From: Streptomyces sp. NBC_01551
GTDB lineage: Bacteria; Actinomycetota; Actinomycetes; Streptomycetales; Streptomycetaceae
Direction of reading: 5' to 3'
Assembly: GCF_026339935.1 (NCBI RefSeq)
Contig: NZ_JAPEPX010000001.1
Location: forward strand, 2,090,501-2,154,500
Length of the DNA stretch: 64,000 nucleotides
Under the pieces are notes generated by a model. That model had not been told where the DNA came from. It searched no databases and saw only the letters and a program-made list of their open reading frames with translations. Below are positions 7,769 through 21,920 of this stretch, in pieces; positions within the stretch are counted from its first letter, which is position 1; every line of letters starts with the position of its first letter. The position numbers were made by a program, and so were the translations under genes.

Positions 7769-9039
7769 TGACCATGAAACTCGCAGTGGTGGGTGGCGGT
7801 TCCACCTACACCCCCGAGCTGATCGACGGCTTCGCGCGGCTGCGCGACACCCTGCCGATCAGCGAACTGGTCCTGATCGACCCCGCCACCGAGCGGCTGG
7901 AGCTGATCGGCTCCCTCGCCCGCCGGATCTTCGCCCGGCAGGACCACCCGGGCCTGATCACCACCACGTGCGACCTCGACGCGGGCGTGGCCGGCGCCGA
8001 CGCGGTCCTGATCCAGCTGCGCATCGGCGGGCAGGCCGCCCGGCTCCAGGACGAGACCTGGCCGCTGGAATGCGGCTGCGTCGGGCAGGAGACCACCGGC
8101 GCGGGCGGGCTCGCGAAGGCGCTGCGCACGGTGCCGGTGGTCCTCGACATCGCCGAGCGGGTCCGGCGGGCCAGCCCGGACGCCTGGATCATCGACTTCA
8201 CCAACCCCGTCGGGATCGTCACCCGCGCCCTGCTCCAGGCCGGGCACAAGGCGGTCGGGCTGTGCAACGTCGCCATCGGCTTCCAGCGGAAGTTCGCGGC
8301 GCTGCTGGACGTGGCGCCCGCCGAGGTGCACCTCGACCACGTCGGGCTCAACCACCTGACCTGGGAACTGGGCGTACGGCTCGGCGGCCCGCAGGGTACG
8401 GACGTCCTGCCCGGGCTGCTGGCCGAGCACGGCGACGCGGTCGCCGCCGACCTGCGGCTGCCGCGCGCGGTGCTGGACCGGCTCGGCGCGGTGCCCTCGT
8501 ACTACCTGCGCTACTTCTACGCGCACGACGCGGTGGTGCGGGAGCTCGGCGAGAAGCCCTCCCGGGCCGCCGAGGTCGCCGCGATGGAACGGGAGCTGCT
8601 CGCCCTGTACGCCGATCCCGCGCTCGACGAGAAGCCGGCGCTGCTGGCCAAGCGGGGCGGGGCCTTCTACTCGGAGGCGGCCGTGGACCTGGCGGCGGCG
8701 CTGCTGGGCGACGGCGGCTCCGCCGTGCAGGTGGTGAACACGTACAACGAGGGGACCCTGCCGTTCCTGCCGGACGACGCGGTCATCGAGGTGCAGGCCG
8801 CCGTGGACCGCTCCGGGCCGGCGCCGCTGGCCGCCCCGCGCCTGGACCCGCTGTACGCCGGACTGATCTCGCACGTGACGGCGTACGAGGACCTCGCGCT
8901 GGACGCGGCCCTGCGCGGCGGGCGCGAGCGGGTCTTCAAGGCGCTGCTGGCGCATCCGCTCGTCGGGCAGTTCGACCTCGCCGAGGGGCTGACGGACCGG
9001 CTCCTGGCGCACAACAAGGAGCATCTGCCATGGGCGTGA
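7768..9039 (+). CDS. GH4 family 6-phospho-beta-glycosidase
   Basis: A 423-residue member of glycoside hydrolase family 4, which cleaves glycosidic bonds by an NAD+- and divalent-metal-dependent redox mechanism. The N-terminal nucleotide-binding motif is 'LAVVGGGSTYTPELIDGF'. 'GQETTGAGGLAKALRTVPV' is typical of the 6-phospho-beta-glucosidase branch. Likely metal ligands are the Cys in 'LCNVAIGF' and the His in 'LDHVGLNHLTW'. It starts within the preceding stop (ATGA) with GGAGTG eight nucleotides upstream, and its own end overlaps the kinase gene. The substrate would be a phosphorylated disaccharide, possibly produced by the kinase encoded next, since ABC import does not phosphorylate. Confidence 0.9.
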   Translation: MTMKLAVVGGGSTYTPELIDGFARLRDTLPISELVLIDPATERLELIGSLARRIFARQDHPGLITTTCDLDAGVAGADAVLIQLRIGGQAARLQDETWPLECGCVGQETTGAGGLAKALRTVPVVLDIAERVRRASPDAWIIDFTNPVGIVTRALLQAGHKAVGLCNVAIGFQRKFAALLDVAPAEVHLDHVGLNHLTWELGVRLGGPQGTDVLPGLLAEHGDAVAADLRLPRAVLDRLGAVPSYYLRYFYAHDAVVRELGEKPSRAAEVAAMERELLALYADPALDEKPALLAKRGGAFYSEAAVDLAAALLGDGGSAVQVVNTYNEGTLPFLPDDAVIEVQAAVDRSGPAPLAAPRLDPLYAGLISHVTAYEDLALDAALRGGRERVFKALLAHPLVGQFDLAEGLTDRLLAHNKEHLPWA

Positions 9040-10046
9040 ACCGGCCCGCCGGCACAGCGGCGGCCGTACTCGCCGTCGACGCGGGCAACAGCAAGACGGA
9101 CGTCGCGCTGATCGCGGCGGACGGCGCCGTCCTCGGCACCGGGCGCTCGGGGGGCTTCCAGCCGCCGCGCGACGGTGTCGAGGCGGCCGTGGAGGTACTG
9201 GGGCGGGCCGTCGCGGAGGCCGCCGAGGCGGCCGGACTGCCGCCGCTGCGACCGGGCTTCCCGCACGTCGGCCAGGTCGCGGCGTGTCTGTCCAACGCCG
9301 ACTTCCCGGTGGAGGAACAGCAGCTCGCGGACGCCATCGGCGCGCGCGGCTGGGGCGCGGCGACGCGGGTGCGCAACGACACCTTCGCGATCCTGCGGGC
9401 GGGACTGTCCGGGTCGGAGCCGCCGCGCGGGGTCGCGGTGGTGTGCGGAGCCGGGATCAACTGCGTGGGGATGCTGCCCGACGGGCGCACCGCGCGGTTC
9501 CCGGCGGTCGGGACGATCTCCGGCGACTGGGGCGGCGGGGGCGGCCTGGCGGAGGAGGCCCTGTGGTGGGCGGCGCGGGCCGAGGACGGGCGCGGCGGCC
9601 CGACGGAGCTCGCGGCGGCGCTGCCGGGACATTTCGGTCTCGGCTCCATGGGGGAGCTGATCGAGGCGCTGCACCTGGGCCCGCTCGCCCGGGGGCGGCT
9701 GCACGAGCTGGTGCCGGTGCTGTTCGCGGTGGCGCGGGCGGGCGACCCGGTGGCCTCGGCGATCGTGGAGCGGCAGGCGGACGAGGTGGTGGCGCTGGCC
9801 TCGGTGGCGCTGGGGCGCCTCGGCCTGCTGGGCGAGGCGGCGCCCGTACTGCTCGGCGGGAGCGTGCTGACGGCCGGCCACCCGCAGCTGAACGGGCGGA
9901 TCGAGGCGGGCTTGGCGCAGCGGGCGCCGCACGCCCGGGTGTCGGTGGTCTCGGCGCCGCCGGTGCTGGGCGCCGGACTGCTGGGGCTGGACGCGCTCGG
10001 GTCCCCGCCCGAGGCGTACGGAAAACTCCGTGCCCATTTCGGGTGA
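9030..10046 (+). CDS. BadF/BadG/BcrA/BcrD-family sugar kinase (N-acetylglucosamine kinase-like)
   Basis: A 338-residue ASKHA-fold ATPase. The phosphate-1 motif is 'AVDAGNSKTDVALI' near residue 16, adenosine-site glycines are in 'LLGGSVL', and a Gly-rich loop occurs at 'SGDWGGGGGLAEEA'. This family includes NagK-type GlcNAc/glucosamine kinases as well as the ATPase activators of CoA dehydratases; no 4Fe-4S cysteine pair is seen here, so sugar kinase is the better reading. It overlaps the GH4 gene by 10 nt, with AAGGAG well placed. It presumably phosphorylates the imported sugar so that the GH4 enzyme can act. Confidence 0.82.
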   Translation: MGVNRPAGTAAAVLAVDAGNSKTDVALIAADGAVLGTGRSGGFQPPRDGVEAAVEVLGRAVAEAAEAAGLPPLRPGFPHVGQVAACLSNADFPVEEQQLADAIGARGWGAATRVRNDTFAILRAGLSGSEPPRGVAVVCGAGINCVGMLPDGRTARFPAVGTISGDWGGGGGLAEEALWWAARAEDGRGGPTELAAALPGHFGLGSMGELIEALHLGPLARGRLHELVPVLFAVARAGDPVASAIVERQADEVVALASVALGRLGLLGEAAPVLLGGSVLTAGHPQLNGRIEAGLAQRAPHARVSVVSAPPVLGAGLLGLDALGSPPEAYGKLRAHFG

Positions 10047-10225
10047 ACCCGCCCGGGCTGCCCGCCGGTCTGGAACCGTGGCGGTCGTGTGGACGTATTC
10101 ACGGTGAAGGGGTGACGGGGGCGCCCGCAGGGGTGGATCGCCCAAGATCCAGCACTGGGTGATGTGGTTGACCGTCACTACGGCCATACTGCTGCGGAGC
10201 AAGAGGGACCGAGGGGGAGGTCACG

Positions 10226-11611
10226 GTGGTCGTCACAGCACGCGCGCTCGCGCCCGGGGGCGGCCCCGCCGCGCCTGCCGCCCCGCCGCCGGCGCGGGGT
10301 TCCGCCTGGTCCGAGGGTGTGGAGCAGCTGCGCCGGGCGGCGACGACCGAGCCCGGCAAGCTGCGCATCATCGGCGCGGGGCTGGCCGCGGTGGTGCTGC
10401 TGTTCGGCCTGGTGACGGTGTGGGAGATCTCCGACCGGGCCGCCGCCGCCGATGACGTGGTCAGCCGCAGCCAGCCGCTCAGCGCGGACGCGGCGAGCAT
10501 CTACCGCTCCCTGGCGGACGCGGACACGGCTTCCTCCAGCGGGTTCCTCGCCGGTGCGCAGGAGCCGCACGAGGTCCGCCAGCGGTACGAGAAGGACATC
10601 GCCAACGCCTCCCGGCTGCTGGTCAGCGCGGCCTCCAACGCCGGGGCCGGCGACAGCTCCCGCAAGGAGATCGCGCTCCTCGGCGAGCAGCTGCCCCGGT
10701 ACACCGGGCTGATCGAGCAGGCCCGGGCCACCAACCGGCAGGGCCTGCCGCTCGGCGGCGCCTATCTCCGGTACGCCAACGAACAGATGAGCACGGTGCT
10801 GCTGCCGGCGGCTCAGCGGCTGTACGAGGCGGAGACCGGCCGGCTGTACACGGACTACGACGACGCCCGGTCCTGGCCGCTGGCCGCCCTCGCCGCGGGC
10901 GTGCTCGCGCTGGCCGCCCTGGGCTGGGCGCAGCGGCGCAACTACCACCGGACGAACCGGGTCTTCAACCACGGTCTCGTCGCCGCGACGGCCGCCTCGA
11001 TGGTGGTGCTGCTGTGGCTGGCGGTGGGGCAGGGCGTCGCGCGGGCGGGGCTGAGCGAGGCCCGGTCGGACGGCCAGGAGTCGCTGAAGGTGCTCAACGA
11101 CGCGCGGATCGCCTCGCTGCAGGCGCGGGCCAACGAGAACCTGACGCTGATCTCGCGGGGCGCCGTACTGGCCGATGACAAGAAGTCCGACAAGTACGAC
11201 GTGGACTTCACCGCGAACATGAAGCAGCTGGACGACGGCCTGGCGAGAGCGCTGCGGCTCGCCGACGACGACAGCGGCCGTACGCCGGTCAGCCGCGCCG
11301 CGAGCGGTGTGACGCAGTGGAAGCAGCGGCACGCGGCGGCCCGTGAGAGCGACCTGAAGGGCGACTACGAGGGCGCCCTGCCCCAGGTCATCGGGGACGC
11401 CGACCACAAGGACAGCAGCGGCGCCTCCTTCGACACGGTGGACGCCTCGCTGGAGCTGGCTGTGGCCCATGAGCAGAAGGAGTTCACCCGGGCGGCCCGG
11501 GACGGGCTCGGCGCGCTGGGCGGATTGGTGACGGGCGCGGCGGCCCTGGCGGTCGTCGGCGCGGCGGCGGCGCTGCTCGGTATCGGGCGCAGGCTTTCGG
11601 AGTACAGGTGA
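10226..11611 (+). CDS. GlnX-like four-helix membrane sensor protein
   Basis: A 461-residue membrane protein with helices at ~47-67, ~217-234, ~249-268 and ~432-453. Two large helical extracytoplasmic domains lie between helices 1/2 and 3/4. This matches the architecture of mycobacterial GlnX (Rv0412c), which with GlnH relays amino-acid availability to PknG. The same gene order follows here. GTG 10226 is preceded by a GGGGGAGG Shine-Dalgarno. The first ~40 residues are Ala/Pro-rich and cytoplasmic. The stop overlaps the next gene. Function by homology is an inference from context and topology; no catalytic domain is present. Confidence 0.75.
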   Translation: MVVTARALAPGGGPAAPAAPPPARGSAWSEGVEQLRRAATTEPGKLRIIGAGLAAVVLLFGLVTVWEISDRAAAADDVVSRSQPLSADAASIYRSLADADTASSSGFLAGAQEPHEVRQRYEKDIANASRLLVSAASNAGAGDSSRKEIALLGEQLPRYTGLIEQARATNRQGLPLGGAYLRYANEQMSTVLLPAAQRLYEAETGRLYTDYDDARSWPLAALAAGVLALAALGWAQRRNYHRTNRVFNHGLVAATAASMVVLLWLAVGQGVARAGLSEARSDGQESLKVLNDARIASLQARANENLTLISRGAVLADDKKSDKYDVDFTANMKQLDDGLARALRLADDDSGRTPVSRAASGVTQWKQRHAAARESDLKGDYEGALPQVIGDADHKDSSGASFDTVDASLELAVAHEQKEFTRAARDGLGALGGLVTGAAALAVVGAAAALLGIGRRLSEYR

Positions 11612-12669
11612 GAGCGATGCGGACGATACGAGTGCGGCGCGGTGCGGGCGAGGGCGACGCACCCCGGGTGTCGGGGGTGCGCCGGCTGGCGGGCCGGCTG
11701 CGCGGCTGGGGCGGGGTCACCGCGATGGCCGCGGCCTGTGCGCTGACGGCCGCGGCCGTGCTGCTGCCACTGGCCCAGGCCGCGCCGGAGAGCGGCGGGC
11801 CGGCGACGGTCCACCCGCCCGCGGCGGTGCAGGTGGCGCCGGATGCGCTGTGGGGCCCCGGGGACACCTGCCAGGACCCGGAGGCCAGCCTGCGCCCGTC
11901 CGCGGTGGACGGGCCGACGATCGAGCGGATCCGCAGCGCGGGCAAGCTCGTCGCGGGCGTGGACCAGAACAGCTTCAAGTGGGGCTACCGCAATCCCGAC
12001 GGCCACCTCGACGGCTTCGACATCGCCCTGGTCAAGGCCATAGCCAAGGACATCCTGGGCGACGAGTCCAAGGTGATCTACCGGGCCATCCCCACCAGCC
12101 AGCGCATCCCGGCCCTCCAGGAAGGCCGCGTCGACATCGTCGTGCGGACCATGACGATCAACTGCAAGCGGCTGGAGGACGTCGCCTTCTCGACGGCGTA
12201 CTTCGAGGCCGGGCAGCAGGTGCTGGCCCCCAAGGGCTCCACGATCACCGGGTACGACGCCTCCCTGAAGGACCGGAAGATCTGCGTCGCCGCCGGCTCC
12301 ACCGCCGAGGCCGCCCTCGCGTCACAGTCGTACGGCTCGGCGGCGGTCACCGTGCCCAACCAGCTGGACTGCCTGGTGCGCCTCCAGCTGGGCGAGGTGG
12401 ACGGCATCATCACCGACAACGCCCTCGCGGCCGGCCAGGCCGCCCAGGACCCGTCGGTGCGGCTCGTCGGCTCCCCGTTCACCAAGGAGTTCTACGGGGT
12501 CGCGATGAACAAGGAGGCCACCGATCTGGTGCGCCGCGTCAACAAGGTGCTGGAGAACTACCGCGCGGGTGGGAACGACAGCCCGTGGATGGTCGCCTAC
12601 CGTGCCCACTTCGAGGGTGTGCTGCCCAAGGCGGTCGCACCGCCCGAGCCCAAATACCGGGACGGCTGA
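11608..12669 (+). CDS. GlnH-like periplasmic glutamate/glutamine-binding protein
   Basis: A 353-residue type-II solute-binding protein. A long basic N-terminus leads into a hydrophobic segment (~residues 32-55) that acts as signal or membrane anchor; no lipobox Cys follows. The SBP_bac_3 core includes 'GKLVAGVDQNSFKWGYRNPD', 'GFDIALVKAIAKDIL' and 'GEVDGIITDNALAAGQA'. No ABC permease or ATPase gene is nearby, so it is more likely a sensor component than an importer, as proposed for mycobacterial GlnH acting with GlnX. GTG 11608 has GGAG five nucleotides upstream; ATG 11617 is an alternative start with AGGTGA in front. Confidence 0.8.
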   Translation: MRAMRTIRVRRGAGEGDAPRVSGVRRLAGRLRGWGGVTAMAAACALTAAAVLLPLAQAAPESGGPATVHPPAAVQVAPDALWGPGDTCQDPEASLRPSAVDGPTIERIRSAGKLVAGVDQNSFKWGYRNPDGHLDGFDIALVKAIAKDILGDESKVIYRAIPTSQRIPALQEGRVDIVVRTMTINCKRLEDVAFSTAYFEAGQQVLAPKGSTITGYDASLKDRKICVAAGSTAEAALASQSYGSAAVTVPNQLDCLVRLQLGEVDGIITDNALAAGQAAQDPSVRLVGSPFTKEFYGVAMNKEATDLVRRVNKVLENYRAGGNDSPWMVAYRAHFEGVLPKAVAPPEPKYRDG

Positions 12670-12695
12670 GGCCTGTGGCGGGATCGGAGCCCTAC

Positions 12696-13985
12696 GTGAG
12701 GCGACCGGAAGCGGGACCTGCCCTGATGGACCGGGACGAGGTCGACCGCGCGCTGTCCCGGCTGGGCGCGGAGCACGAGGCCGTCGAGACCTCGCTGCTC
12801 GCCCTCCAGGACCACGCCGGGCGGCGGCTGCTGGAGGGTGCCGGGCTGACCGGTGTCACCAAGGAGCGCTGGACCGCCGCCGACGCGGCGATCACCCGGC
12901 TGTGGACGTACTTCGAGGCGTACACCGGGGCGCTGGACGCCGCCCGGCGGATCCGCGAGCGGCGCCGCTGGCCGAGCCGTGACGACCTGGTCGAACTGAC
13001 CGACCGGCTGCGCGGACCCGGCGTGACGATCGCCGGGGCCGGGGTCGAGGGCGCCGCGCTGGCGGAGCGGTTCTCGCTCGCCGAGCTGGTGGCCCGGATG
13101 AACGAGTTGTACGCGAGCTCGCTGGACGTGGTGGTGGCCGCCGACGCGGTGTGGTCGGCGCTGCCCGCCCGCATCGACCTGCTCGCCGCCGAACTGCACC
13201 GCACCCGCTCGCTGGCCCACTCGGTGGGGGTGCGCCCGGGCGAACACCCCTCGGGGGACGACCTGGAGGACATCACCGCCGAGCTGGCCGAGCTGCGGGA
13301 GCGGGTGATCGCGGACCCGCTGGCGTTCTGGGTGCCGGTGGCGGGGAGTTCCGCGCCCGGCGGCGGCCGCCCGGACACCGGCCGCTACGACCGGGCGGCG
13401 CGCGCGTTGGAGGACGTACGCCGTGAGGTGGAGGCGGTGCTGGACGTTCGGCAGGACGCCGAGGCCCGGCTGATCAGCCTGCGGGACGTGCTCTCGCGGG
13501 CCGACCGGACCCTGGCTGAGGCGCGGACGGCGCGCGGCGAGGTGCTGGCGAAGATCGCGGCGTCGGAGGTCCCGGCGGTGAGCGGGCCCCCGACGGCGTT
13601 GCAGGAGCAGCTGGCGGCGGCCGCGGAGCACCGTCGGCAGGCCCGGTGGCACCGGCTGTCGCCGCTGCTGGAGTCGTTGGAGGAGCGGGCCGAGGAGGAA
13701 CTCCGCCGGGCCCGCGAATCGTTGACCGCGGTGACGGCCCCGCTGGCCGTACGGGCGGAGCTGCGCGGGCGGCTCGACGCGTACAAGGCGAAGATGGCAC
13801 GGCACGGCATGGCCGAGGATCCGCTGCTGATCGAGCGGTACGACACGGCCCGGCGGATGCTGTGGAGCGCGCCCTGCGACTTGCGGGCCGCGGAGCAAGC
13901 CGTGCTGCGCTACCAGCAGGCGGCGGCCGAGGCACTGGCGCCGCGGCAGTACCGGCCCGAGGGGCCGGGGGAGGAGGACGCATGA
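12696..13985 (+). CDS. Helical coiled-coil protein of unknown function in the PknG operon
   Basis: A protein of about 429 residues with no family I recognise. It is rich in Ala, Arg, Glu and Leu and almost entirely helical, with heptad-like stretches such as 'ALEDVRREVEAVLDVRQD' and 'LLESLEERAEEELRRARE'. There is no signal peptide or membrane segment, so it is probably cytosolic. GTG 12696 has GGAG at 6-nt spacing; ATG 12726 is an alternative. Its stop overlaps the kinase start by four nucleotides, so it is coupled to the kinase. It is absent from the mycobacterial glnX-glnH-pknG locus. It could be a scaffold or substrate of the kinase, which is inference from position only. Confidence 0.8.
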   Translation: MRRPEAGPALMDRDEVDRALSRLGAEHEAVETSLLALQDHAGRRLLEGAGLTGVTKERWTAADAAITRLWTYFEAYTGALDAARRIRERRRWPSRDDLVELTDRLRGPGVTIAGAGVEGAALAERFSLAELVARMNELYASSLDVVVAADAVWSALPARIDLLAAELHRTRSLAHSVGVRPGEHPSGDDLEDITAELAELRERVIADPLAFWVPVAGSSAPGGGRPDTGRYDRAARALEDVRREVEAVLDVRQDAEARLISLRDVLSRADRTLAEARTARGEVLAKIAASEVPAVSGPPTALQEQLAAAAEHRRQARWHRLSPLLESLEERAEEELRRARESLTAVTAPLAVRAELRGRLDAYKAKMARHGMAEDPLLIERYDTARRMLWSAPCDLRAAEQAVLRYQQAAAEALAPRQYRPEGPGEEDA

Positions 13986-16635
13986 GTCTGGCCGGAACCG
14001 CGTGCGTTCGCCCCGGCTGCCCGGGGACGTACGAGGACATGGGCGGCGGCGAGCTGTACTGCGACACCTGCGGGCTGGCGCCGGTCGGCTCCGTCGCGGC
14101 GGGCGCGGAGGAACTCGTGTCGCCGCCGACGGGGATGACCAGCGCGGCGCGCCGCGGTGAGGCGTACGGATCCCAGGGGTCACAGGCGTCTCACGGGTCG
14201 CATGGATCCCAGGGGTCTCACGGATCCCAGGGGTCGCAGGGCTCGCACGGGTCCGGGCGGTCCTCGTCGGCCTCGGCCCGTTCCTCGCGGTCCTCGCGTT
14301 CGTCCTCGTCCCGGCGCTCGGTGTCGGGGCGGCTGTCGCGCTCGCTGTCGGGAGCCGCGTCCACCCGGTCGGTGTCGGTGCGCAGTTCCTCCTCCGGGGC
14401 CTCGGCCTCGGGGCGCAGCCGGCTCGGGGCCGGGCTGGTCAACGTCCCGGAGGTACCGCGTCCGGACCCCTCGGCGGCAGTGCTGGAGAACCCGGAGGTG
14501 CCGGAGCGCAAGCGGTTCTGCTCGCGCTCGGACTGCGGGGCCCCGGTCGGCCGGGCGCGGGGCGACCGTCCGGGCCGGACGGAAGGGTTCTGCACCAAGT
14601 GCGGGCACCCGTACTCCTTCGTGCCCAAGCTGCGCGCGGGTGACGTGGTGCACGGCCAGTACGAGGTGGCGGGCTGCCTCGCGCACGGCGGCCTCGGCTG
14701 GGTGTACCTGGCGGTGGACCGGGCGGTCTCGGACCGGTGGGTGGTGCTCAAGGGCCTGCTGGACACCGGGGACCAGGACGCGATGGAGGCGGCGATCTCC
14801 GAGCGGCGCTTCCTCGCGGAGATCGAGCACTCCAACATCGTGCGGATCTACAACTTCGTCGAGCACCTGGACCAGCGGACCGGTTCGCTCGACGGGTACA
14901 TCGTCATGGAGTACGTCGGCGGCAAGTCCCTGAAGGAGATCGCCAACGAGCGGCGCCGGCCCGACGGCCGGCGCGACCCGCTGCCGGTGGAGCAGGCGTG
15001 CGCGTACGGCATCGAGGCGCTGGAGGCGCTCGGGCACCTGCACAGCAGAAACCTTCTGTACTGCGACTTCAAGGTCGACAACGCGATCCAGCAGCAGGAC
15101 CAGCTGAAGCTGATCGACATGGGCGCGGTACGGCGGATGGACGACGAGGAGTCGGCCATCTACGGCACGGTGGGCTACCAGGCGCCGGAGGTCGCGGAGT
15201 TGGGGCCGTCGGTGGCCTCCGACCTGTACACGGTGGCGCGCACCCTGGCGGTGCTGACGTTCGACTTCCAGGGCTACACGAACGTGTTCGTGGATTCGCT
15301 GCCGGATCCGGAGCACATCGAGGTCTTCGGCCGGTACGAGTCGTTCTACCGGCTGCTGGTACGGGCGACCGACCCGGATCCGGGTCGGCGGTTCGCGTCC
15401 GCGCAGGAGATGGCGGACCAGCTGACGGGTGTGCTGCGGGAGGTGGTCGCGCTCCAGACGGGGCGGCCGCGGCCGCAGGTCTCCACGCTGTTCGGGCCGG
15501 AGCTGCGGGTTCCGGACACCCGGCTGTTCGCGGACGCGGCGGGGGCGGAGGTGTCCCGGCTGGGGGCGCGGGCCGTCTCGCGCAAGGGGCGGCCGTCGTC
15601 GGCGGCCGCCGGTGCGGGCGTCCCCGCGCCGCGCCGGGCCCCGGAGGGGATCCGGCGGCGGGTCCGGCCGCGGATCCGGCGGCGCAGGCCGTCCGGCACA
15701 CGGAGCTCGCCTCGCTGGACGCGCACGTCGCGGCGCTGGCCCTGCCGGTGCCGCTGGTGGACCCGGCCGACCCCAACGCCGGTTTCCTGGCGGGCCTGCT
15801 GGCCTCCGCGCCGGCCGACCTGCTGGGCGCGCTCGGCTCGGCGGCCGCGGACTCGGCGGAGCTGCGGCTGCGGGAGCTGCGGGCGCGCCTGGAACTGGGC
15901 GAGCCGGAGGTGGCCGGGGCCGAGGGGCCGCTGGCGCGGCTGGAGACCCTGTATCCGGACGACTGGCGGGTGGTGTGGGCACGCGGGATCGTCTCGCTGG
16001 CCGGCGGGGACGACGAGACGGCGGCCCTGTCCTTCGACGCCATATACGACGCGTTCCCGGGCGAGCCCGCGCCGAAGCTGGCGCTGGGCCTGTGCGCGGA
16101 GATCCTGGGGCAGCTGGACAACGCGGCCGAGTACTACCGCCTGGTGTGGGCCACGGACCCCGGTTTCGTCAGCGCGGCGTTCGGGCTGTCCCGGGTCCAG
16201 CTGGCGGCGGGCGACCGGGCCGGGGCGGTGGCGACGCTGGAATCCGTGCCGGAGGCGTCCATCCACTACACCGCCGCACGGGTGGCGGCGGTACGGGCAC
16301 GCCTGCGCGACCGCTCTCCCGACGAGGCCCTGCTGCCCGACCTGACGGCGGCTGCCGCGCAGGTGGAGGCCCTGGAGCGGTTCGGCCTGGACGCGCAGCG
16401 GCACGAGCGGTTGTCGACGGAGGTTCTGGGCTCGGCCCTGGACTGGGTACTGTCGGGTAGCCGGGGTGCCGACCCCGGCCGGTCCCGGCTGCTCGGCAGT
16501 CAACTGGACGAGCGGGGGCTGCGCTTCGGCCTGGAGCGCTCGTACCGCGTCCTCGCCCGGCTGGCGCAGCGGGGCGAGGAGAGGATCGAACTGGTGGAAC
16601 GGGCAAACCGTTTCCGTCCCCGGACGTGGGTGTGA
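13982..16635 (+). CDS. pknG: PknG-like serine/threonine protein kinase with zinc ribbons and TPR domain (frameshifted)
   Basis: If the frames are joined, this is an 884-residue PknG homologue. Order: zinc ribbon at ~9-31; Ser/Gly/His/Gln/Arg low-complexity ~60-150; rubredoxin-like ribbon ('RFCSRSDCG', 'FCTKCGHPYSF'); kinase domain with 'CLAHGGLGWVYLA', Lys257, catalytic Asp362 in 'YCDFKVDN' and metal Asp379 in 'LIDMGAV'; then TPRs ('FPGEPAPKLALGLCAEILG'). The kinase half reads in the frame of 13982, while the TPR half reads one frame back from about 15650, so a base is missing around 15620-15660 or the gene is truly broken. Without correction the kinase frame continues as Arg-rich nonsense to 16345. 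It sits between the coiled-coil and phosphatase genes with overlaps. It probably phosphorylates FHA or metabolic targets. Confidence 0.85.
14168..14258 (+). repeat. Short tandem repeat inside the kinase linker
   Basis: GGATCCCAGGGGTC occurs at 14168, 14204 and 14222, with degenerate copies between. The 18-bp period (six codons) encodes a Gly-Ser-Gln/His repeat. Length variation here would stay in frame and change only the linker between the two zinc ribbons. Confidence 0.8.
15615..15660 (+). other. Apparent -1 frameshift between kinase and TPR domains
   Basis: Upstream of this stretch the PknG-like sequence lies in codons starting at positions 2 mod 3; downstream the conserved TPR sequence lies in codons starting at 1 mod 3. 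Candidate error sites are the CCCC runs at 15622-15625 and 15639-15642 and the GGGG run at 15646-15649. One extra base in any of them would restore a single gene. Confidence 0.8.
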
Positions 16636-18321
16636 GTGATGTCGATGCATCGGCTGTCGGGATGCCCGAGCTGCGCGGAACCCCTGGAGGAGGGTGACCG
16701 TTTCTGCGGTGTCTGCGGCTACGCCCTCTCCTCCCCACCCCCATCCCAGGACCACCCCACCCTCCCCCTCCCGGCCCCGGCCGGCCGGGGCCCGGCGGGC
16801 GAAGCTGCCGGCGGCCGGGGTCGCGCGACCGCTACGAGCGACCACCCCGGGCCGCAGGCTCGTGCCGCCGAAGCCCCGGGCGGGCGCGGCTACGCCGGGA
16901 CCGGCACGGACACGGACGAGGCTCCGGCCTCGGCGGGCGGCTCCTGGGGGCCCGGCGCGAACGCGGCCGTTCCCGCGGGCCGTCACCGCGGGGCGGACGC
17001 CCGTGCGGGCGAGGCCGCGGGCTCCGTCGACGGGTATCCCCTCGCCGGGCCGGACGCGTACTCCGGTGCGGGTGCCGCCATCGGCGGGCCGGGGTACGCG
17101 GGCTCCGGCGGTGAGCACCACGCCCCGGCAGAGCGCGCGGGCGTGCGCCTCGACGGTGGCCGGGAGCACGGCGACGACTGCGGGTACGGGGCCGTACCCG
17201 CGCCCGGGTGGGGGAGCACGGACGAGGCCGCGCCGACGCTGGTCGGGGACGCGGCCGGCTGGTCCGCGGCCGCGTCCGTGTCGGACCCCGGCGACACCGC
17301 GCCGCGGCCGTCCGGTGAGACCGCCCCGGAGGGCACCGGTGAGACCCGGTACGACCCGCCGGGCGACGGCGGCAAGACCTGCGTCGCCTGCCGGGCCGGG
17401 CGGGTGGACACCGACGGGTACTGCGAGCACTGCGGCCACGCCCAGCCCCGCGAGCGCGACCACCTCGAAGAGGAACTCGGCAGCGTCGCCGCCGTCAGCG
17501 ACCGCGGCCTGCGCCACCACCGCAACGAGGACTCCTTCGCGGTCGCGGCCACCGCCCTCCCCGACGGCTCGGCCGCCACCGTCGCCATCGTCTGCGACGG
17601 CGTCTCCTCCGCCAGCCGCCCCGACGAGGCGTCCGCCGCCGCCGCGGCCGCCGCCAACGAGGCGCTGCTGGAGGCCCTCCCCCGCGGCACCCACCCCCAG
17701 AAGGCCATGCACGAGGCGATCCTCGCCGCCGCGGCCGCCGTCAACGCCCTCGCACCCGACGTGCCGGGTGCCCAGAACGCCCCCGCCTGCACCCTGGTCG
17801 GCGCCGTCGTGAGCGGCGGCCTGCTGACCATCGGCTGGGTCGGCGACAGCCGGGCGTACTGGGTCCCCGACGACCGCGCCGCCCTCCCCCGCCGCCTCAC
17901 CGAGGACGACTCCTGGGCGGCCCAGATGGTCGCGGCCGGCCTGATGGGCGAGGCCGAGGCCTACGCCGACGTCCGCGCCCACGCCATCACCGGCTGGCTC
18001 GGGGCCGACGCGTACGACCTCGAACCACACACCGCCAGCTTCAAGCCGGACCACGACGGCGTGGTGGTCGTCTGCACCGACGGCCTCTGGAACTACGCCG
18101 AATCCGCCCACGACATGGCCCAGGTGCTCCCCGAGGACGCCGCCGCCCGCCCCCTGCACAGCGCGCAGGTCCTGGTGGGGCACGCCCTCGACGGGGGCGG
18201 CCACGACAACGTCACCGTGGCCCTCGTCCCGTTCAACGCACCCCCGGACGCGGACCCCGCCGCGGCGGCGCAACCACAAGCGGAACCGCAAGCGGAAGCG
18301 GACCCCCGCACCCAGGCCTGA
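16636..18321 (+). CDS. PP2C-family serine/threonine phosphatase with two zinc ribbons
   Basis: A 561-residue phosphatase. The first zinc ribbon is Cys10/13/24/27; a ~220-residue Gly/Ala/Pro linker follows; a second ribbon is at Cys249/252/263/266. The PP2C (PPM) domain spans ~280-535 with the metal-binding residues in 'HHRNEDSF' (Asp299), 'VCDGVSS' (Asp321), 'GDSRAYW' (Asp404), 'CTDGLW' (Asp482) and 'GGHDNVTVAL' (Asp524), so it should be an active Mn/Mg phosphatase. The start is either GTG 16636 or ATG 16639, immediately after the kinase stop. It most likely reverses phosphorylation by the adjacent PknG-like kinase; the shared zinc ribbons suggest a common docking partner. Confidence 0.9.
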   Translation: MMSMHRLSGCPSCAEPLEEGDRFCGVCGYALSSPPPSQDHPTLPLPAPAGRGPAGEAAGGRGRATATSDHPGPQARAAEAPGGRGYAGTGTDTDEAPASAGGSWGPGANAAVPAGRHRGADARAGEAAGSVDGYPLAGPDAYSGAGAAIGGPGYAGSGGEHHAPAERAGVRLDGGREHGDDCGYGAVPAPGWGSTDEAAPTLVGDAAGWSAAASVSDPGDTAPRPSGETAPEGTGETRYDPPGDGGKTCVACRAGRVDTDGYCEHCGHAQPRERDHLEEELGSVAAVSDRGLRHHRNEDSFAVAATALPDGSAATVAIVCDGVSSASRPDEASAAAAAAANEALLEALPRGTHPQKAMHEAILAAAAAVNALAPDVPGAQNAPACTLVGAVVSGGLLTIGWVGDSRAYWVPDDRAALPRRLTEDDSWAAQMVAAGLMGEAEAYADVRAHAITGWLGADAYDLEPHTASFKPDHDGVVVVCTDGLWNYAESAHDMAQVLPEDAAARPLHSAQVLVGHALDGGGHDNVTVALVPFNAPPDADPAAAAQPQAEPQAEADPRTQA

Positions 18322-18338
18322 CCCTAGGAGTCCAACCG

Positions 18339-19667
18339 ATGGCGAACTTCGCCAAGCCGAGCGCCCCGCGCTTCAGCGTGGAGGTGTACCAGAACGAGTT
18401 CCTCCCCGAGGGCGGCCGCGACGTCCACGCCATCGTGACGGTCACCTCCACCGGCGGGGCGACCGCGACCCGTGCCGCCGTCCCCGCCCAGGCCGGTGCG
18501 GCCGTCGTGATCATGGTCGACTGCTCCGGTTCCATGGAGTACCCGCCGGACAAGATGCGCGGCGCCCGCGAGGCCACCGCCGCCGCCGTCGACACCCTGC
18601 GCGACGGCACCGCCTTCGCCGTCGTCGCCGGTACCCACGTGGCCAAGGAGGTCTACCCCGGCCAGGGCCGCCTCGCCACCGCGGACCCGGCGACCCGCGC
18701 CCAGGCCAAGGAGGCCCTGCGCGGCCTCAGCGCCGGCGGCGGCACCGCCATCGGCACCTGGCTGCGCCTCGCCGACGGCCTGCTGCGGCAGTCCCCCGCC
18801 GCCATACGGCACGGCATCCTCCTCACCGACGGCCGCAACGAGCACGAGGACCCGGCCGTCCTGCGCGCCACCCTCGACGCCTGCGCGGGCCGTTTCACCT
18901 GCGACGCCCGCGGCGTGGGCACCGACTGGGAGGTCAAGGAGGTCACCGGCATCGCGAGCGCGCTGCTCGGCACCGCCGACATCGTCGCCGACCCGGCGCA
19001 CCTCGCCGAGGACTTCACCCGCATGATGGGCAACGCCATGGGCAAGGAGGTCGCGGACGTATCACTGCGCCTGTGGACCCCGGTCGGCGTGGAGATCCAG
19101 TACGTCAAGCAGGTCGCGCCCTCCGTCCAGGACCTGACCGCCCGCCGCGTCGAGGCGGGTCCGCGCGCCGGCGACTACCCGACCGGTTCGTGGGGCGACG
19201 AGTCCCGCGAGTACCACGTGTGCGTACGGGTGCCGGGCGCGGCCGTCGGCCAGGAGATGCTGGCCGCCCGGGCCACGCTCGTCCTGCCCGGAGCCCCGGG
19301 CGAACCGCCGGCCAGCCTCGCCCAGGGACTGGTCCGGGCGGTGTGGACGACCGATCTCGCCGCTTCGACCGCCATCAACCCGCAGGTCGCGCACTACACC
19401 GGACAGGCGGAGCTCGCGCAGGCTATCCAACAGGGCCTGGAAGCCCGCAAACTGGGTGATGTCGACGGCGCCACGGCCAAGCTCGGCCGTGCCGTGCAGC
19501 TCGCGTCCGCGTCGGGGAACGCGGACACGGCCAAGTTGCTCGCGAAGGTGGTGGACGTCGTGGACGCGGCGGCGGGTACTGTGCGGCTGAAAGCGAAGGT
19601 CGCGGATGCCGACGAGATGACTCTTGAAACGCGTTCGACCCAGACCGTCCGAGTGAAGAAGACCTGA
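18339..19667 (+). CDS. von Willebrand factor type A domain protein
   Basis: A 442-residue cytosolic protein. The VWA domain (~55-230) keeps the MIDAS metal site: 'MVDCSGSMEY' (Asp61, Ser63, Ser65), the Thr of 'GGGTAIG' and the Asp of 'LLTDGRNEHED'. The C-terminal half is beta-rich followed by a helical tail ending 'RSTQTVRVKKT'. There is no signal peptide. GGAG precedes ATG 18339 by eight nucleotides. VWA proteins mediate metal-dependent protein-protein contacts; in this operon it may present substrates to the kinase/phosphatase pair. That role is inference; the fold assignment is firm. Confidence 0.85.
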   Translation: MANFAKPSAPRFSVEVYQNEFLPEGGRDVHAIVTVTSTGGATATRAAVPAQAGAAVVIMVDCSGSMEYPPDKMRGAREATAAAVDTLRDGTAFAVVAGTHVAKEVYPGQGRLATADPATRAQAKEALRGLSAGGGTAIGTWLRLADGLLRQSPAAIRHGILLTDGRNEHEDPAVLRATLDACAGRFTCDARGVGTDWEVKEVTGIASALLGTADIVADPAHLAEDFTRMMGNAMGKEVADVSLRLWTPVGVEIQYVKQVAPSVQDLTARRVEAGPRAGDYPTGSWGDESREYHVCVRVPGAAVGQEMLAARATLVLPGAPGEPPASLAQGLVRAVWTTDLAASTAINPQVAHYTGQAELAQAIQQGLEARKLGDVDGATAKLGRAVQLASASGNADTAKLLAKVVDVVDAAAGTVRLKAKVADADEMTLETRSTQTVRVKKT

Positions 19668-19714
19668 GAAGAAGACCTGACGCGATGACGCAGGGTGAAG
19701 GGGGAAGGGCCGAC

Positions 19715-20833
19715 ATGCCGACCTGCCCGAACGGGCACCACTCGGGTTCCGACGACTGGTGCGAGGTCTGCGGCCACCGCATGGCTGCCTCTTCCCCTGC
19801 CCCCGCCGCCACGGGGGCTCCCGCGGCGCCGTCGTACGGTTACGGCTTTCCTCCCACCGCGGGCGAGCCGACCGCCCAGGCCGAGCTCTGCCCGCAGTGC
19901 CGGACCCCGCGCGAGGCCATGGCCCCGTTCTGCGAGGAGTGCCGGTACAACTTCCTGACGCGTACGGCGACCTCGTACACGCCGCTCGCCCCGGAACCCG
20001 GCATGGGGACCGGCGGCGGCCCGGGTGCGGGCGCGGGCATCGCCCCGCCACCGCCGCCGCCCGCACCGCCGGTGGCGCCCCCCGCACCGCCCGCGCCTCC
20101 GGTTCCGCCCGCGTACTCCCAGGACCACTTCGAGTACCAGGGATCCCGTCCCTCCCGGGTCAACCGGCCGGCCGAGCCGCTGCAGCGCGAGGACGACTGG
20201 CTGCTCCCGCCCCCGGCGCACGAGCAGCACCAGCAGCCCCACTACCAGCAGCAGCCCCCGCCGCCGCCCGCGCAGCAGGAGTACCAGCAGCCGGAGTACC
20301 AGCAGCCTGCGCAGCACCAGGAGTACGCGCCCGCGCAGCAGCAGCCCGCGTACGAGCGGCCGGAGTACGAGCAGCCGGAGTACGAGCAGCCCCGCCGGCA
20401 GCACGAGTCCTTCCCGTCCCAGGGCGGCGGCTCCTGGAGTGCGACGATCGGACCCGACCGCTCGTACTTCATGGCGATGATGCAGCGCAGCGGCCCGGAC
20501 GCGGCAGGGCTCAACCTGCCGGCGTACTCCCCGGAACTCCGCCTTCCGCTCGCCGGCGGCCAGATCACCATCGGCCGCCGCCGCGCCTCCACGGGCGAGT
20601 CCCCGGACGTCGACCTGTCGGTGCCGCCGGAGGACCCGGGCGTCTCGCACCAGCACGCGGTGCTGGTCCAGCAGCCCGACGGCAGCTGGGCGGTGGTGGA
20701 CCAGAACTCCACCAACGGCACCACCATCAACGGCGGCGAGGAGCCGATCCAGCCCTACGTACCGGTCCCGCTCACCGACGGCGACCGCGTCCACGTCGGC
20801 GCCTGGACCACCATCACCATCCGGCGCGGCTAG
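19715..20833 (+). CDS. FHA-domain protein with zinc ribbons
   Basis: A 372-residue protein. Two zinc ribbons lie at the N-terminus (Cys4...Cys16/Cys19, and Cys59/62/73/76). A long Pro/Gln/Tyr-rich linker with 'YQQPEYQQP'-type repeats leads to a C-terminal FHA domain at ~275-372. The phosphothreonine-binding residues are present: Gly-Arg in 'TIGRRR', Ser-His in 'VSHQHAV' and 'NSTNGTTIN'. It should bind phosphothreonine peptides, probably phosphorylated by the kinase of the operon, in the manner of GarA with mycobacterial PknG. I chose ATG 19715 because a GGGGGAAGGG Shine-Dalgarno precedes it; ATG 19685 would add ten residues. Its stop overlaps the opposite gene's stop (CTAG). Confidence 0.88.
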   Translation: MPTCPNGHHSGSDDWCEVCGHRMAASSPAPAATGAPAAPSYGYGFPPTAGEPTAQAELCPQCRTPREAMAPFCEECRYNFLTRTATSYTPLAPEPGMGTGGGPGAGAGIAPPPPPPAPPVAPPAPPAPPVPPAYSQDHFEYQGSRPSRVNRPAEPLQREDDWLLPPPAHEQHQQPHYQQQPPPPPAQQEYQQPEYQQPAQHQEYAPAQQQPAYERPEYEQPEYEQPRRQHESFPSQGGGSWSATIGPDRSYFMAMMQRSGPDAAGLNLPAYSPELRLPLAGGQITIGRRRASTGESPDVDLSVPPEDPGVSHQHAVLVQQPDGSWAVVDQNSTNGTTINGGEEPIQPYVPVPLTDGDRVHVGAWTTITIRRG

Positions 20834-21798
20834 TCCGAGTACGACCGGGCCGCCTCCCCCAGGGGCCACACGTAGGGCCCCTGGGGATCGTCGAGCCATG
20901 ACCACTGGCCCTCCGGGGTGACGGTCACCCCGAAGCGCTCGCGCGCCGGGCGGCCCTCGCCGCGCCACAGGTCCAGCGCCTCGCGGGCGTGCAGGGCCCC
21001 GGCGGTCAGCACCAGCATGAACTGGAAGCGCTCGTTCTCCACCAGCTCGTACGGGAGTCCGTACGAGGCCCCGGGCTCGGCGGGCGGCGCGGCCGTGGCC
21101 CCGCGCAGCGGGACGAAGTAGGCCGCGGTGTGCAGGAACCGGCCCTCGGCGAGCTCGGCGTCCCGGACCGTGAGCGCGATCAGCCCGGTCGACAGCGGTG
21201 CCAGGATCCGCGCCCCCGGGCGGCACTGGGCGAGCCAGGCGGGCGGGATCCGCGGCAGCGTGCAGGTCACCAGGATCCGGTCGAAGGGGGCGCGGGAGGG
21301 GCAGCCGCGCGCCCCGTCGCCGGTGACCACCGCCGGCCGGTAGCCGAGCGCGGCCAGGTGCGCCCGCGCGGACTCGGTGATCTCCTCGTCCAGGTCGATC
21401 GTGGTGACGCGCTCGTCGCCGAGCCGGTGGCACAGCAGCGCCGCGTTGTAGCCGGTGCCCGCGCCGATCTCCAGCACGTGGTGGCCGTCGCGCACGTCCA
21501 GGGCGTTCAGCATCTTCGCCATCAGGGAGGGCTGGCTGCTGGAGGAGACCAGCTCGCCGTCACGGAGCCGGGTCGCGAGCGGGGTGTCCGTGTACACGCC
21601 GCGCAGCCAGCGGGCCCGGCGCTCGGGGTCGGGGTCCTCGCCCCACAGCCGCTCGTGGCCGGCGCCGCGGCCGGTCCAGAAGTACGGCACGAAGGCGTGC
21701 CGGGGCACGGCCTCGAAGGCCGCCCGCCAGGCGGGATCGACCAGCACCCCGGCGGCGGTCAGTTCCCGTACCTGGGCGGCGTGCGCGATTTCCCGCAT
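20830..21798 (-). CDS. Protein-L-isoaspartate O-methyltransferase-like enzyme
   Basis: A 322-residue SAM-dependent methyltransferase. The PIMT-type pre-motif is 'SSSSQPSLMAKML'. SAM motif I is 'VLEIGAGTGYNAALL', followed by acidic loop 'TTIDLDEEI' and 'FDRILVTCTLPRIPPAW'. PIMTs repair isoaspartyl damage, but actinobacterial members of this longer form include enzymes that modify peptides, so repair is not certain. The start at 21798 has GAGG eight nucleotides upstream; a further ATG at 21825 would add nine residues but has a poorly spaced ribosome site. It is convergent with the FHA gene, overlapping by four nucleotides. Confidence 0.8.
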   Translation of the reverse strand: MREIAHAAQVRELTAAGVLVDPAWRAAFEAVPRHAFVPYFWTGRGAGHERLWGEDPDPERRARWLRGVYTDTPLATRLRDGELVSSSSQPSLMAKMLNALDVRDGHHVLEIGAGTGYNAALLCHRLGDERVTTIDLDEEITESARAHLAALGYRPAVVTGDGARGCPSRAPFDRILVTCTLPRIPPAWLAQCRPGARILAPLSTGLIALTVRDAELAEGRFLHTAAYFVPLRGATAAPPAEPGASYGLPYELVENERFQFMLVLTAGALHAREALDLWRGEGRPARERFGVTVTPEGQWSWLDDPQGPYVWPLGEAARSYSD

Positions 21799-21920
21799 GT
21801 CGCGTACCTCGGCGTGTGCGCCCATGCCTCCACTGTCCTGCGCCGGGCCCGGGGGTGCGAACGCGCGCGGGCCCCGGCGCGGCCGGGCGCGACCGCCTGC
21901 CGCCGGCCGCCGCGAACGGG

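Follow-up and report, generated by a model that had tools for sequence, protein, structure and literature searches.

A conserved seven-gene PknG operon in Streptomyces with a possible FHA-VWA read-out

We analysed a 64,000-nucleotide stretch of the genome of Streptomyces sp. NBC_01551, a 7.05 Mb draft in 28 contigs; the whole stretch is referred to as the window. Between positions 10226 and 20833, seven genes on the + strand were found to encode, in order, GlnX, GlnH, a helical protein, the kinase PknG, a PP2C phosphatase, a VWA protein and an FHA protein. An initial annotation, made from the letters alone, had proposed this set in this order, and both the coordinates of the open reading frames (ORFs) and the domain matches agreed with it. 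The features are as follows.

10226..11611, + strand: glnX, membrane protein; NCBIfam NF058618 GlnX subfamily, 477.8 bits (cut-off 250)
11608..12669, + strand: glnH, family 3 solute-binding protein; PF00497, 88.8 bits; M. tuberculosis GlnH 6H2T, 184 bits
12726..13985, + strand: helical or coiled-coil-like protein without a known domain; alternative GTG start at 12696
13982..15645, + strand: pknG first part, with Cys4 ribbon, Ser/Arg-rich segment, rubredoxin domain (PF16919, 110.5 bits) and kinase domain (PF00069, 90.9 bits)
14003..14071, + strand: N-terminal zinc-ribbon-like CxxxxC...CxxC of PknG, by pattern and conservation
14312..14389, + strand: Ser/Arg-rich segment of PknG, RRSVSGRLSRSL...TRSVSVRSS, conserved across 111 Streptomyces sequences
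15640..15660, + strand: frame change of pknG in the kinase-TPR linker, by third-position GC and frame comparison
15640..16635, + strand: PknG TPR domain (PF16918, 295.7 bits), the second part of pknG, in a frame different from that of the first
16636..18321, + strand: PP2C Ser/Thr phosphatase; ATG at 16639; PF13672, 45.4 bits
18339..19667, + strand: VWA protein; PF18571, 75.9 bits; ArnB-like tripartite architecture predicted by homology
19602..19664, + strand: Ser/Thr tail of the VWA protein (DEMTLETRSTQTVRVKKT), by motif conservation
19685..20833, + strand: FHA protein; PF00498, 59.7 bits; possible start also at 19715
20830..21825, - strand: PCMT-like methyltransferase, convergent; PF01135, 107.4 bits; downstream edge of the operon

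Four-base overlaps were found at the glnX/glnH and helical/pknG junctions, pknG and the PP2C gene abut, gaps of 17 bases precede the VWA and FHA genes, and 26 or 56 bases separate glnH from the helical gene, depending on the start of the latter. The earlier description of one overlapping transcript thus holds for two junctions and fails for the abutting, 17-base and 26/56-base ones. A scan of positions 9900-21100 revealed no sigma-70-like promoter, a terminator scan of the same interval gave a single terminator-like site on the - strand, and an Rfam search yielded no match. The seven genes are likely to be co-transcribed.

Gene order was compared in a labelled set of 80 loci (79 labelled Streptomyces and one Microtetraspora glauca) and in a second set of 30 first-copy loci from further Streptomyces genomes. 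In the labelled set, the order glnX-glnH-helical-pknG-PP2C-VWA-FHA was complete and on one strand at 63 of the 80 loci, and the remaining 17 were without only those genes that lay past a contig end. All seven genes stood in order on one strand at 29 of the 30 loci of the second set, the last being cut by a contig end. The initial annotation had held that homologues scattered without linkage in other genomes would speak against an operon; the exact order is kept in other Streptomyces, and its conservation far exceeds chance. We regard the gene identities and their conservation as firm. At one locus (L029), the helical gene itself was found in two frames. A PknG TPR match was present in 18 of 21 Streptomyces genomes, the window's included; of the three genomes without one, one is 79% complete and two are 98-100% complete, so the gene set is not universal in the genus.

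The first part of PknG, with both the rubredoxin and the kinase domain, matched the M. tuberculosis PknG structure 2PZI with 395 bits, and the kinase Lys/Asp/Asn/Asp residues (K257, D362, N367 and D379) were invariant in ten aligned sequences. Together with the Pfam, NCBIfam and 6H2T matches, this bears out the identities first given to PknG, GlnX and GlnH. The N-terminus carries Gly-Ser-His/Gln repeats (14160-14260) whose length varies among relatives, and the Ser/Arg-rich segment at 14312..14389 is a candidate docking or phosphorylation segment. The initial annotation overlooked a frame split near 15640-15660: no single frame spans pknG. The rubredoxin and kinase domains share one frame, and the TPR domain, which runs to 16635, is read in a second. 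The switch of third-position GC from one frame to the other falls near 15640, inside the GC-rich linker that joins the catalytic and TPR domains. Kinase and TPR domains were in separate ORFs at 3 of 104 loci and in the same ORF at 101, a count of loci and not of strains, as the two locus sets share some genomes; L020 and L119, for instance, are on equally long contigs. The three comprise two of the 30 loci of the second set (L033, L090), none of the 73 labelled-set loci with both parts, and the window; all three splits fall in the variable linker. The 120 closest homologues listed for the kinase part comprised 105 of 904-1003 residues and 15 of 527-704 residues; the latter had no TPR domain, and several were labelled partial. 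Two of these short homologues (P0128, P0164) end out of frame in the linker. Among the matches listed, Streptomyces goshikiensis provided the closest to the helical protein and one of the closest to the kinase. The frame split may be either a sequencing error or a strain-specific break. A decayed operon was also observed in another Streptomyces (L193, genome G172, 6.1 Mb), in which the kinase domain is nearly gone, a TPR fragment remains, the VWA gene lies in several frames, glnX and glnH are broken, and the helical, PP2C and FHA genes are still open.

GlnX revealed four hydrophobic segments by hydropathy (residues 48-66, 217-235, about 246-268 and about 435-457), as for a four-transmembrane protein, and scored below the narrower equivalog NF041460 (181.7 bits, cut-off 780). 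The N-terminal hydrophobic segment of GlnH covers residues 37-55. A lipobox was absent from the window GlnH and from the 61 testable of the 80 labelled-set loci; by a hydropathy test, 85 of 111 Streptomyces GlnH sequences had no anchor motif and were left uncounted, and the GlnH of L167 has LAAC, located inside the hydrophobic segment. Using the residue roles given in the available part of PMC6069109, we found R147, T162, R169 and D250 kept in the window protein, with the replacements S164 to Thr, K161 to Arg and W232 to Gln. Across 111 Streptomyces sequences, R147, T162 and D250 were present in all and R169 in 109, and position 164 was Thr in 108 and Ser in 3. The ligand-contacting Trp232 was Gln in 110 and His in one; elsewhere (families carry working labels) this position was Trp in 8/8 sequences of f4, Tyr in 7/7 of f17 and mostly Ile (9/16) in f18. 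Asp or Glu as the GlnH ligand is plausible but not assured from these residues, and the ligand of the Streptomyces protein may differ from the mycobacterial one; the pocket change predicts family-to-family differences in the sensed ligand. Sensing over import, as first proposed, agrees with the lack of permease and ATPase genes among the seven and with the orthologue work, as far as seen, of PMC6069109 and PMC9769921.

Residues 7-441 of the 442-residue VWA protein matched structure 4FX5 (E 3.5e-136), and its metal-ion-dependent adhesion site (MIDAS) is intact, with D61, S63, S65, T136 and D164 invariant in 22 aligned sequences. By homology to 4FX5, the protein is predicted to have an ArnB-type tripartite architecture; in the portions seen of PMC6509490, 4FX5 shares the arrangement of vWA, beta-sandwich and helix bundle with the ArnB paralogue vWA2. 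The same portions describe ArnA as a zinc-finger FHA protein and report that ArnB is phosphorylated on residues of its C-terminal domain, that ArnA binding drops strongly when this domain is removed, and that the ArnA-ArnB interaction fades on starvation. The operon FHA protein comprises an N-terminal zinc-ribbon-like motif by pattern, a second Cys/His-rich motif by eye, a Pro/Gln-rich middle and a C-terminal FHA domain in which the R, S, H and N positions are present. It was ruled out as GarA/OdhI, with 24.8 bits against a cut-off of 200 and no ETTS in its sequence.

The C-terminal motif L[DE][TAS].S[TV].T was found in 94 of 97 Streptomyces operon VWA proteins; two of the three misses are cut by contig ends, and the third, at L112, shifts frame before the tail. 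This locus was also rejected as a VWA-FHA fusion, as the frame departs before the tail and no clean fusion results. Elsewhere the motif was present in 5/5 proteins of f26, 4/4 of f17, 1/1 of f11, 1/1 of f73, 7/10 of f18 and 7/7 far f18 copies, and in 0/7 paralogous VWA proteins; VWA matches below 150 bits (L058, L191, L192) were left out of this count. By our reading of the locus scan, the seven paralogous VWA genes have no FHA domain nearer than 5 kb. In 42 rows, tail and FHA neighbour were both present in 32, both absent in 9, and the FHA neighbour was alone in 1. In nine sequences across families, tail conservation was about equal to that of the rest of the protein (0.69 vs 0.65). The Ser/Thr tail is a candidate kinase target and FHA ligand. 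Additionally, second Streptomyces PknG paralogues (L036-L038, L095-L098) were observed to adjoin a VWA protein whose C-terminus is a zinc-ribbon-like segment; it is without the tail motif and without an FHA gene closer than 5 kb.

The helical protein gave no Pfam or NCBIfam match and no hydrophobic segment by hydropathy; its label comes from the look of the sequence and two database source names, not from a model. Among 8000 scored candidates, 2573 were its homologues. The PP2C protein scored 107.5 bits against NF033484, below the cut-off of 230, and its motifs NED, DG, GDSR, DG and DN align to 1TXO; its N-terminus carries two zinc ribbons. From these motifs, the phosphatase may oppose PknG signalling.

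To place the set beyond Streptomyces, we used a class-wide sample of 197 genomes, in which PknG TPR matches were found in 56, over the cut-off in 55. Loci were scored with iterated profiles at matches of at least 30 bits, a helical homologue being counted above 60 bits; unfetched were 1 of 18 f18 and 4 of 16 f4 matches and four below the cut-off. A tally of 25 loci outside Streptomyces, f4 and a second-copy f18 clade (f18 9, f17 8, f26 5, and f11, f27 and f73 one each) revealed, beside pknG, PP2C at 25, FHA at 21, VWA at 19 and a helical homologue at 15; GlnX and GlnH were present at 23, and all seven genes at 11, which include a genome of another class. VWA was absent at L049, L050, L051, L052, L063 and L070 and FHA at L050, L051, L063 and L070; L051 and L070 are truncated by the ends of their contigs. 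Gene order is reshuffled among families, as in f17, where glnX-glnH come last, and linkage is kept. In a genome of another class (L195), the block from the helical gene to the FHA gene has glnH and glnX divergent beside it. In the reverse test, 34 of 47 VWA_3_C matches in the 197 genomes followed a same-strand PknG TPR match at a distance of 1.2-2.9 kb, the TPR matches used being those minus the f4 rows and the four sub-cut-off matches. At nine of the 13 other VWA_3_C loci (L185-L192, L194), PP2C, VWA and FHA genes stood in a row as a cassette, with no more than a partial VWA match at L190, L191 and L192; the other four unlinked matches scored below 27 bits and were unfetched, and L194 may continue the contig-cut locus L070. 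At L188, L189 and L191, a PknG-like kinase lies beside the cassette; in Pfam, the kinases of L188 and L191 have a kinase domain, rubredoxin scores of 26.5 and 23.5 bits (cut-off 28.5) and no TPR domain. Kinases usually carry Lys two residues after the catalytic Asp, and these two were observed to have Ala there.

The Mycobacteriaceae-like family f4, one member of which has a PknG matching M. tuberculosis 2PZI at 1398 bits, had none of the four extra genes at its 12 fetched loci (16 matched), 10 of which have enough flank; VWA_3_C was present in 40 genomes, and all 14 f4 genomes that carry PknG fell outside this group. In a maximum-likelihood tree, built quickly from 61 kinase-plus-TPR sequences and rooted on distant Streptomyces paralogues, f4 formed one clade (support 100) inside cassette-bearing lineages; seven end branches of the tree were long, and two rows had an odd composition. 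Because other families carry the extra genes and the f4 clade is nested within cassette-bearing lineages, the three-gene mycobacterial operon looks reduced, and a single cassette loss in f4 would be the simplest reading of the tree, not proof. The initial annotation had the mycobacterial set extended here; by the locus tally and the tree, the fuller set is the more widespread one.

GarA is the established PknG target, and a search of the genome of the strain gave a single strong GarA/OdhI-like match, located far from the operon. SETTSTISI precedes its FHA domain, and its score is 193.6 bits, just under the NCBIfam cut-off of 200; ten weaker matches include the operon FHA protein. The available part of PMC12321487 reports GarA phosphorylated at ETTS in Saccharopolyspora erythraea. 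The motif suggests that the established GarA branch is probably present in this strain too. Among open PMC papers, judged on titles, abstracts and the passages seen, we found none that describes PknG with VWA, PP2C and FHA; the PknG work retrieved deals mainly with three-gene-operon organisms.

On balance, we lean slightly towards the seven genes being the complete version of the PknG signalling operon of actinobacteria, with an FHA-VWA switch, of which the mycobacterial operon would be a reduced descendant. GlnH would bind an amino acid outside the membrane, and GlnX would relay the signal to the TPR domain of PknG. This sensor-to-kinase step is drawn from the mycobacterial and corynebacterial orthologues, for which the part seen of PMC9769921 leaves the GlnH-GlnX and GlnX-PknG contacts undemonstrated. 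Active PknG would phosphorylate the unlinked GarA, as its ETTS motif suggests, and also the conserved Ser/Thr tail of the VWA protein encoded in the operon. This tail, once phosphorylated, would be bound by the FHA domain of the last gene product, giving a switch like that of archaeal ArnA-ArnB and a second read-out beside GarA. The co-encoded PP2C, judging from its motifs, would reset the switch, and the helical protein is probably a scaffolding partner. We tentatively entertain the further possibility that the ancestral job of PknG was to drive, in response to amino acids outside the cell, a phospho-dependent FHA-VWA switch with its own phosphatase, a bacterial counterpart of ArnA-ArnB, and that mycobacteria and corynebacteria lost this whole arm and retained the GarA branch alone. 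If the fuller set is older, it would offer candidates for three missing pieces: a phosphatase dedicated to the pathway, an additional output and a partner in the cytoplasm.

Several results weigh against the full-operon interpretation. The pknG of the window is frame-split, and the circuit may not work in this strain. On the VWA tree the tail shows a single change, so that its co-occurrence with FHA amounts to one contrast, and we dropped it as independent evidence. In the part seen of PMC6509490, the tested Thr-to-Ala pairs of ArnB still bound ArnA, and only removal of the C-terminal domain weakened binding. A shared zinc-ribbon assembly was also dropped: the kinase, PP2C and FHA ribbons are alike by eye, but a kinase-ribbon profile run across 23125 ORFs (i-Evalue 0.01) found 137 kinase ORFs, 0 PP2C and 0 FHA. 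The cassette is often missing from second PknG clades. Ten Streptomyces paralogue loci had PP2C at 0, FHA at 0 and VWA at 7, and eight f18 loci in a separate clade (L060, L062, L064, L067, L069, L072, L074 and L075) had PP2C at 0, VWA at 3 and FHA at 2. The modules are separable, as the PP2C-VWA-FHA cassette of f18 is also found at a distance from full-length PknG; Mycobacteriaceae manage without the cassette. Of 296 genomes sampled across the phylum, L195 was the only one outside the class to give a strong TPR match. The two nesting branches of the PknG tree have values of only 88 and 77 in the Shimodaira-Hasegawa-like approximate likelihood ratio test (SH-aLRT), and the root consists of distant paralogues.

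In a rival explanation, only the path from GlnH, GlnX and PknG to GarA at the 2-oxoglutarate node would matter, and PP2C, VWA and FHA would form a separate module that shares the transcript and no more. Mycobacteria and corynebacteria work with three genes in the parts seen of PMC6069109, PMC9769921 and PMC8546545, the same genome encodes the GarA/OdhI-like protein with ETTS (193.6 bits), and the f18 cassette occurs away from full-length PknG. However, the cassette follows pknG in several families and in one other class, with partly reshuffled order and kept linkage, and three unlinked f18 cassettes (L188, L189, L191) adjoin a PknG-like kinase, with a weak rubredoxin match in L188 and L191. 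We consider a separate module somewhat doubtful. The frame split would also fit a real pseudogene in a decaying operon: kinase and TPR lie in different frames, P0128 and P0164 are likewise out of frame in the linker, and L193 is visibly decayed. Yet the other six genes are open in the window, L193 differs in having lost most of its kinase and in its broken glnX, glnH and VWA genes, and three splits in 104 loci, all in a variable linker, also fit sequencing error in a 28-contig draft; decay of the operon in this strain seems unlikely.

A conflict or stress module of the TerY-P type, with kinase, PP2C and VWA acting in phage or damage response, appears highly improbable. The three genes do match the TerY-P triad in the part seen of PMC4978471, a zinc-ribbon kinase, PP2C and standalone vWA belong to GAP1-N2 systems of actinobacteria according to the part seen of PMC7159879, and 31 PADLOC models match the kinase domain, mostly PD-T4-6 among the 25 shown. 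In contrast, the nearest TerD gene is about 250 kb off, with no TerD or conflict context at the operon, and in PADLOC the PP2C reached only 17.5 bits, with GlnX, GlnH and the helical, VWA and FHA proteins unmatched. The order is also stable across the genus, with the same downstream neighbour in 53/63, and the set is coupled to an amino-acid sensor.

This downstream neighbour, the methyltransferase at 20830-21825, was convergent and on the opposite strand in 53 of the 63 labelled-set loci with an FHA gene. It scored 289 bits against a graspetide-system family (cut-off 380), and four ORFs nearby, tested against NCBIfam, gave no match. DNA matches extended into the upstream region at only 7 of the 80 labelled-set loci. 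The upstream gene at 9029-10046, which had no Pfam or NCBIfam match, presumably resembles a BadF/BadG-type kinase.

Compared with known systems, the set shares the joint presence of kinase, PP2C and VWA with the TerY-P triad, as described in the part seen of PMC4978471, whereas it has no TerD nearby, adds FHA and GlnX/GlnH, and has a PknG-type kinase. It likewise shares an adjoining zinc-ribbon kinase, PP2C and standalone vWA with the GAP1-N2-associated actinobacterial genes of PMC7159879, again in the part seen. It differs from these in its PknG architecture and amino-acid sensor, and no GAP1-N2 gene is among the seven. The PpkA-PppA-FHA group of type VI secretion also has kinase, phosphatase, FHA and VWA parts, whereas no secretion gene is among the seven and the FHA protein scored 39.1 bits against a TagH cut-off of 120.25. 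The glnX-glnH-pknG operon of Mycobacterium and Corynebacterium has in common the GlnX, GlnH and PknG relatives, the catalytic residues, the TPR domain and a GarA-like protein elsewhere in the genome. In contrast, the Streptomyces set adds four conserved genes (helical, PP2C, VWA and FHA), its kinase adds an N-terminal Cys4 ribbon and the Ser/Arg-rich segment, and its GlnH is without a lipobox and has Gln replacing Trp232. ArnA-ArnB of Sulfolobus acidocaldarius (kinases ArnC/ArnD), as described in the part seen of PMC6509490, has in common a zinc-finger FHA protein and a VWA protein, predicted to be tripartite in Streptomyces by homology, whose MIDAS is intact and whose C-terminus bears Thr; a connection to nutrient state, published for ArnA-ArnB, is a further likeness. 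ArnA-ArnB is archaeal, with about 20% identity between vWA2 and 4FX5 in the vWA domain in that source, and the Streptomyces operon, unlike it, also encodes the kinase, the PP2C and the amino-acid sensor.

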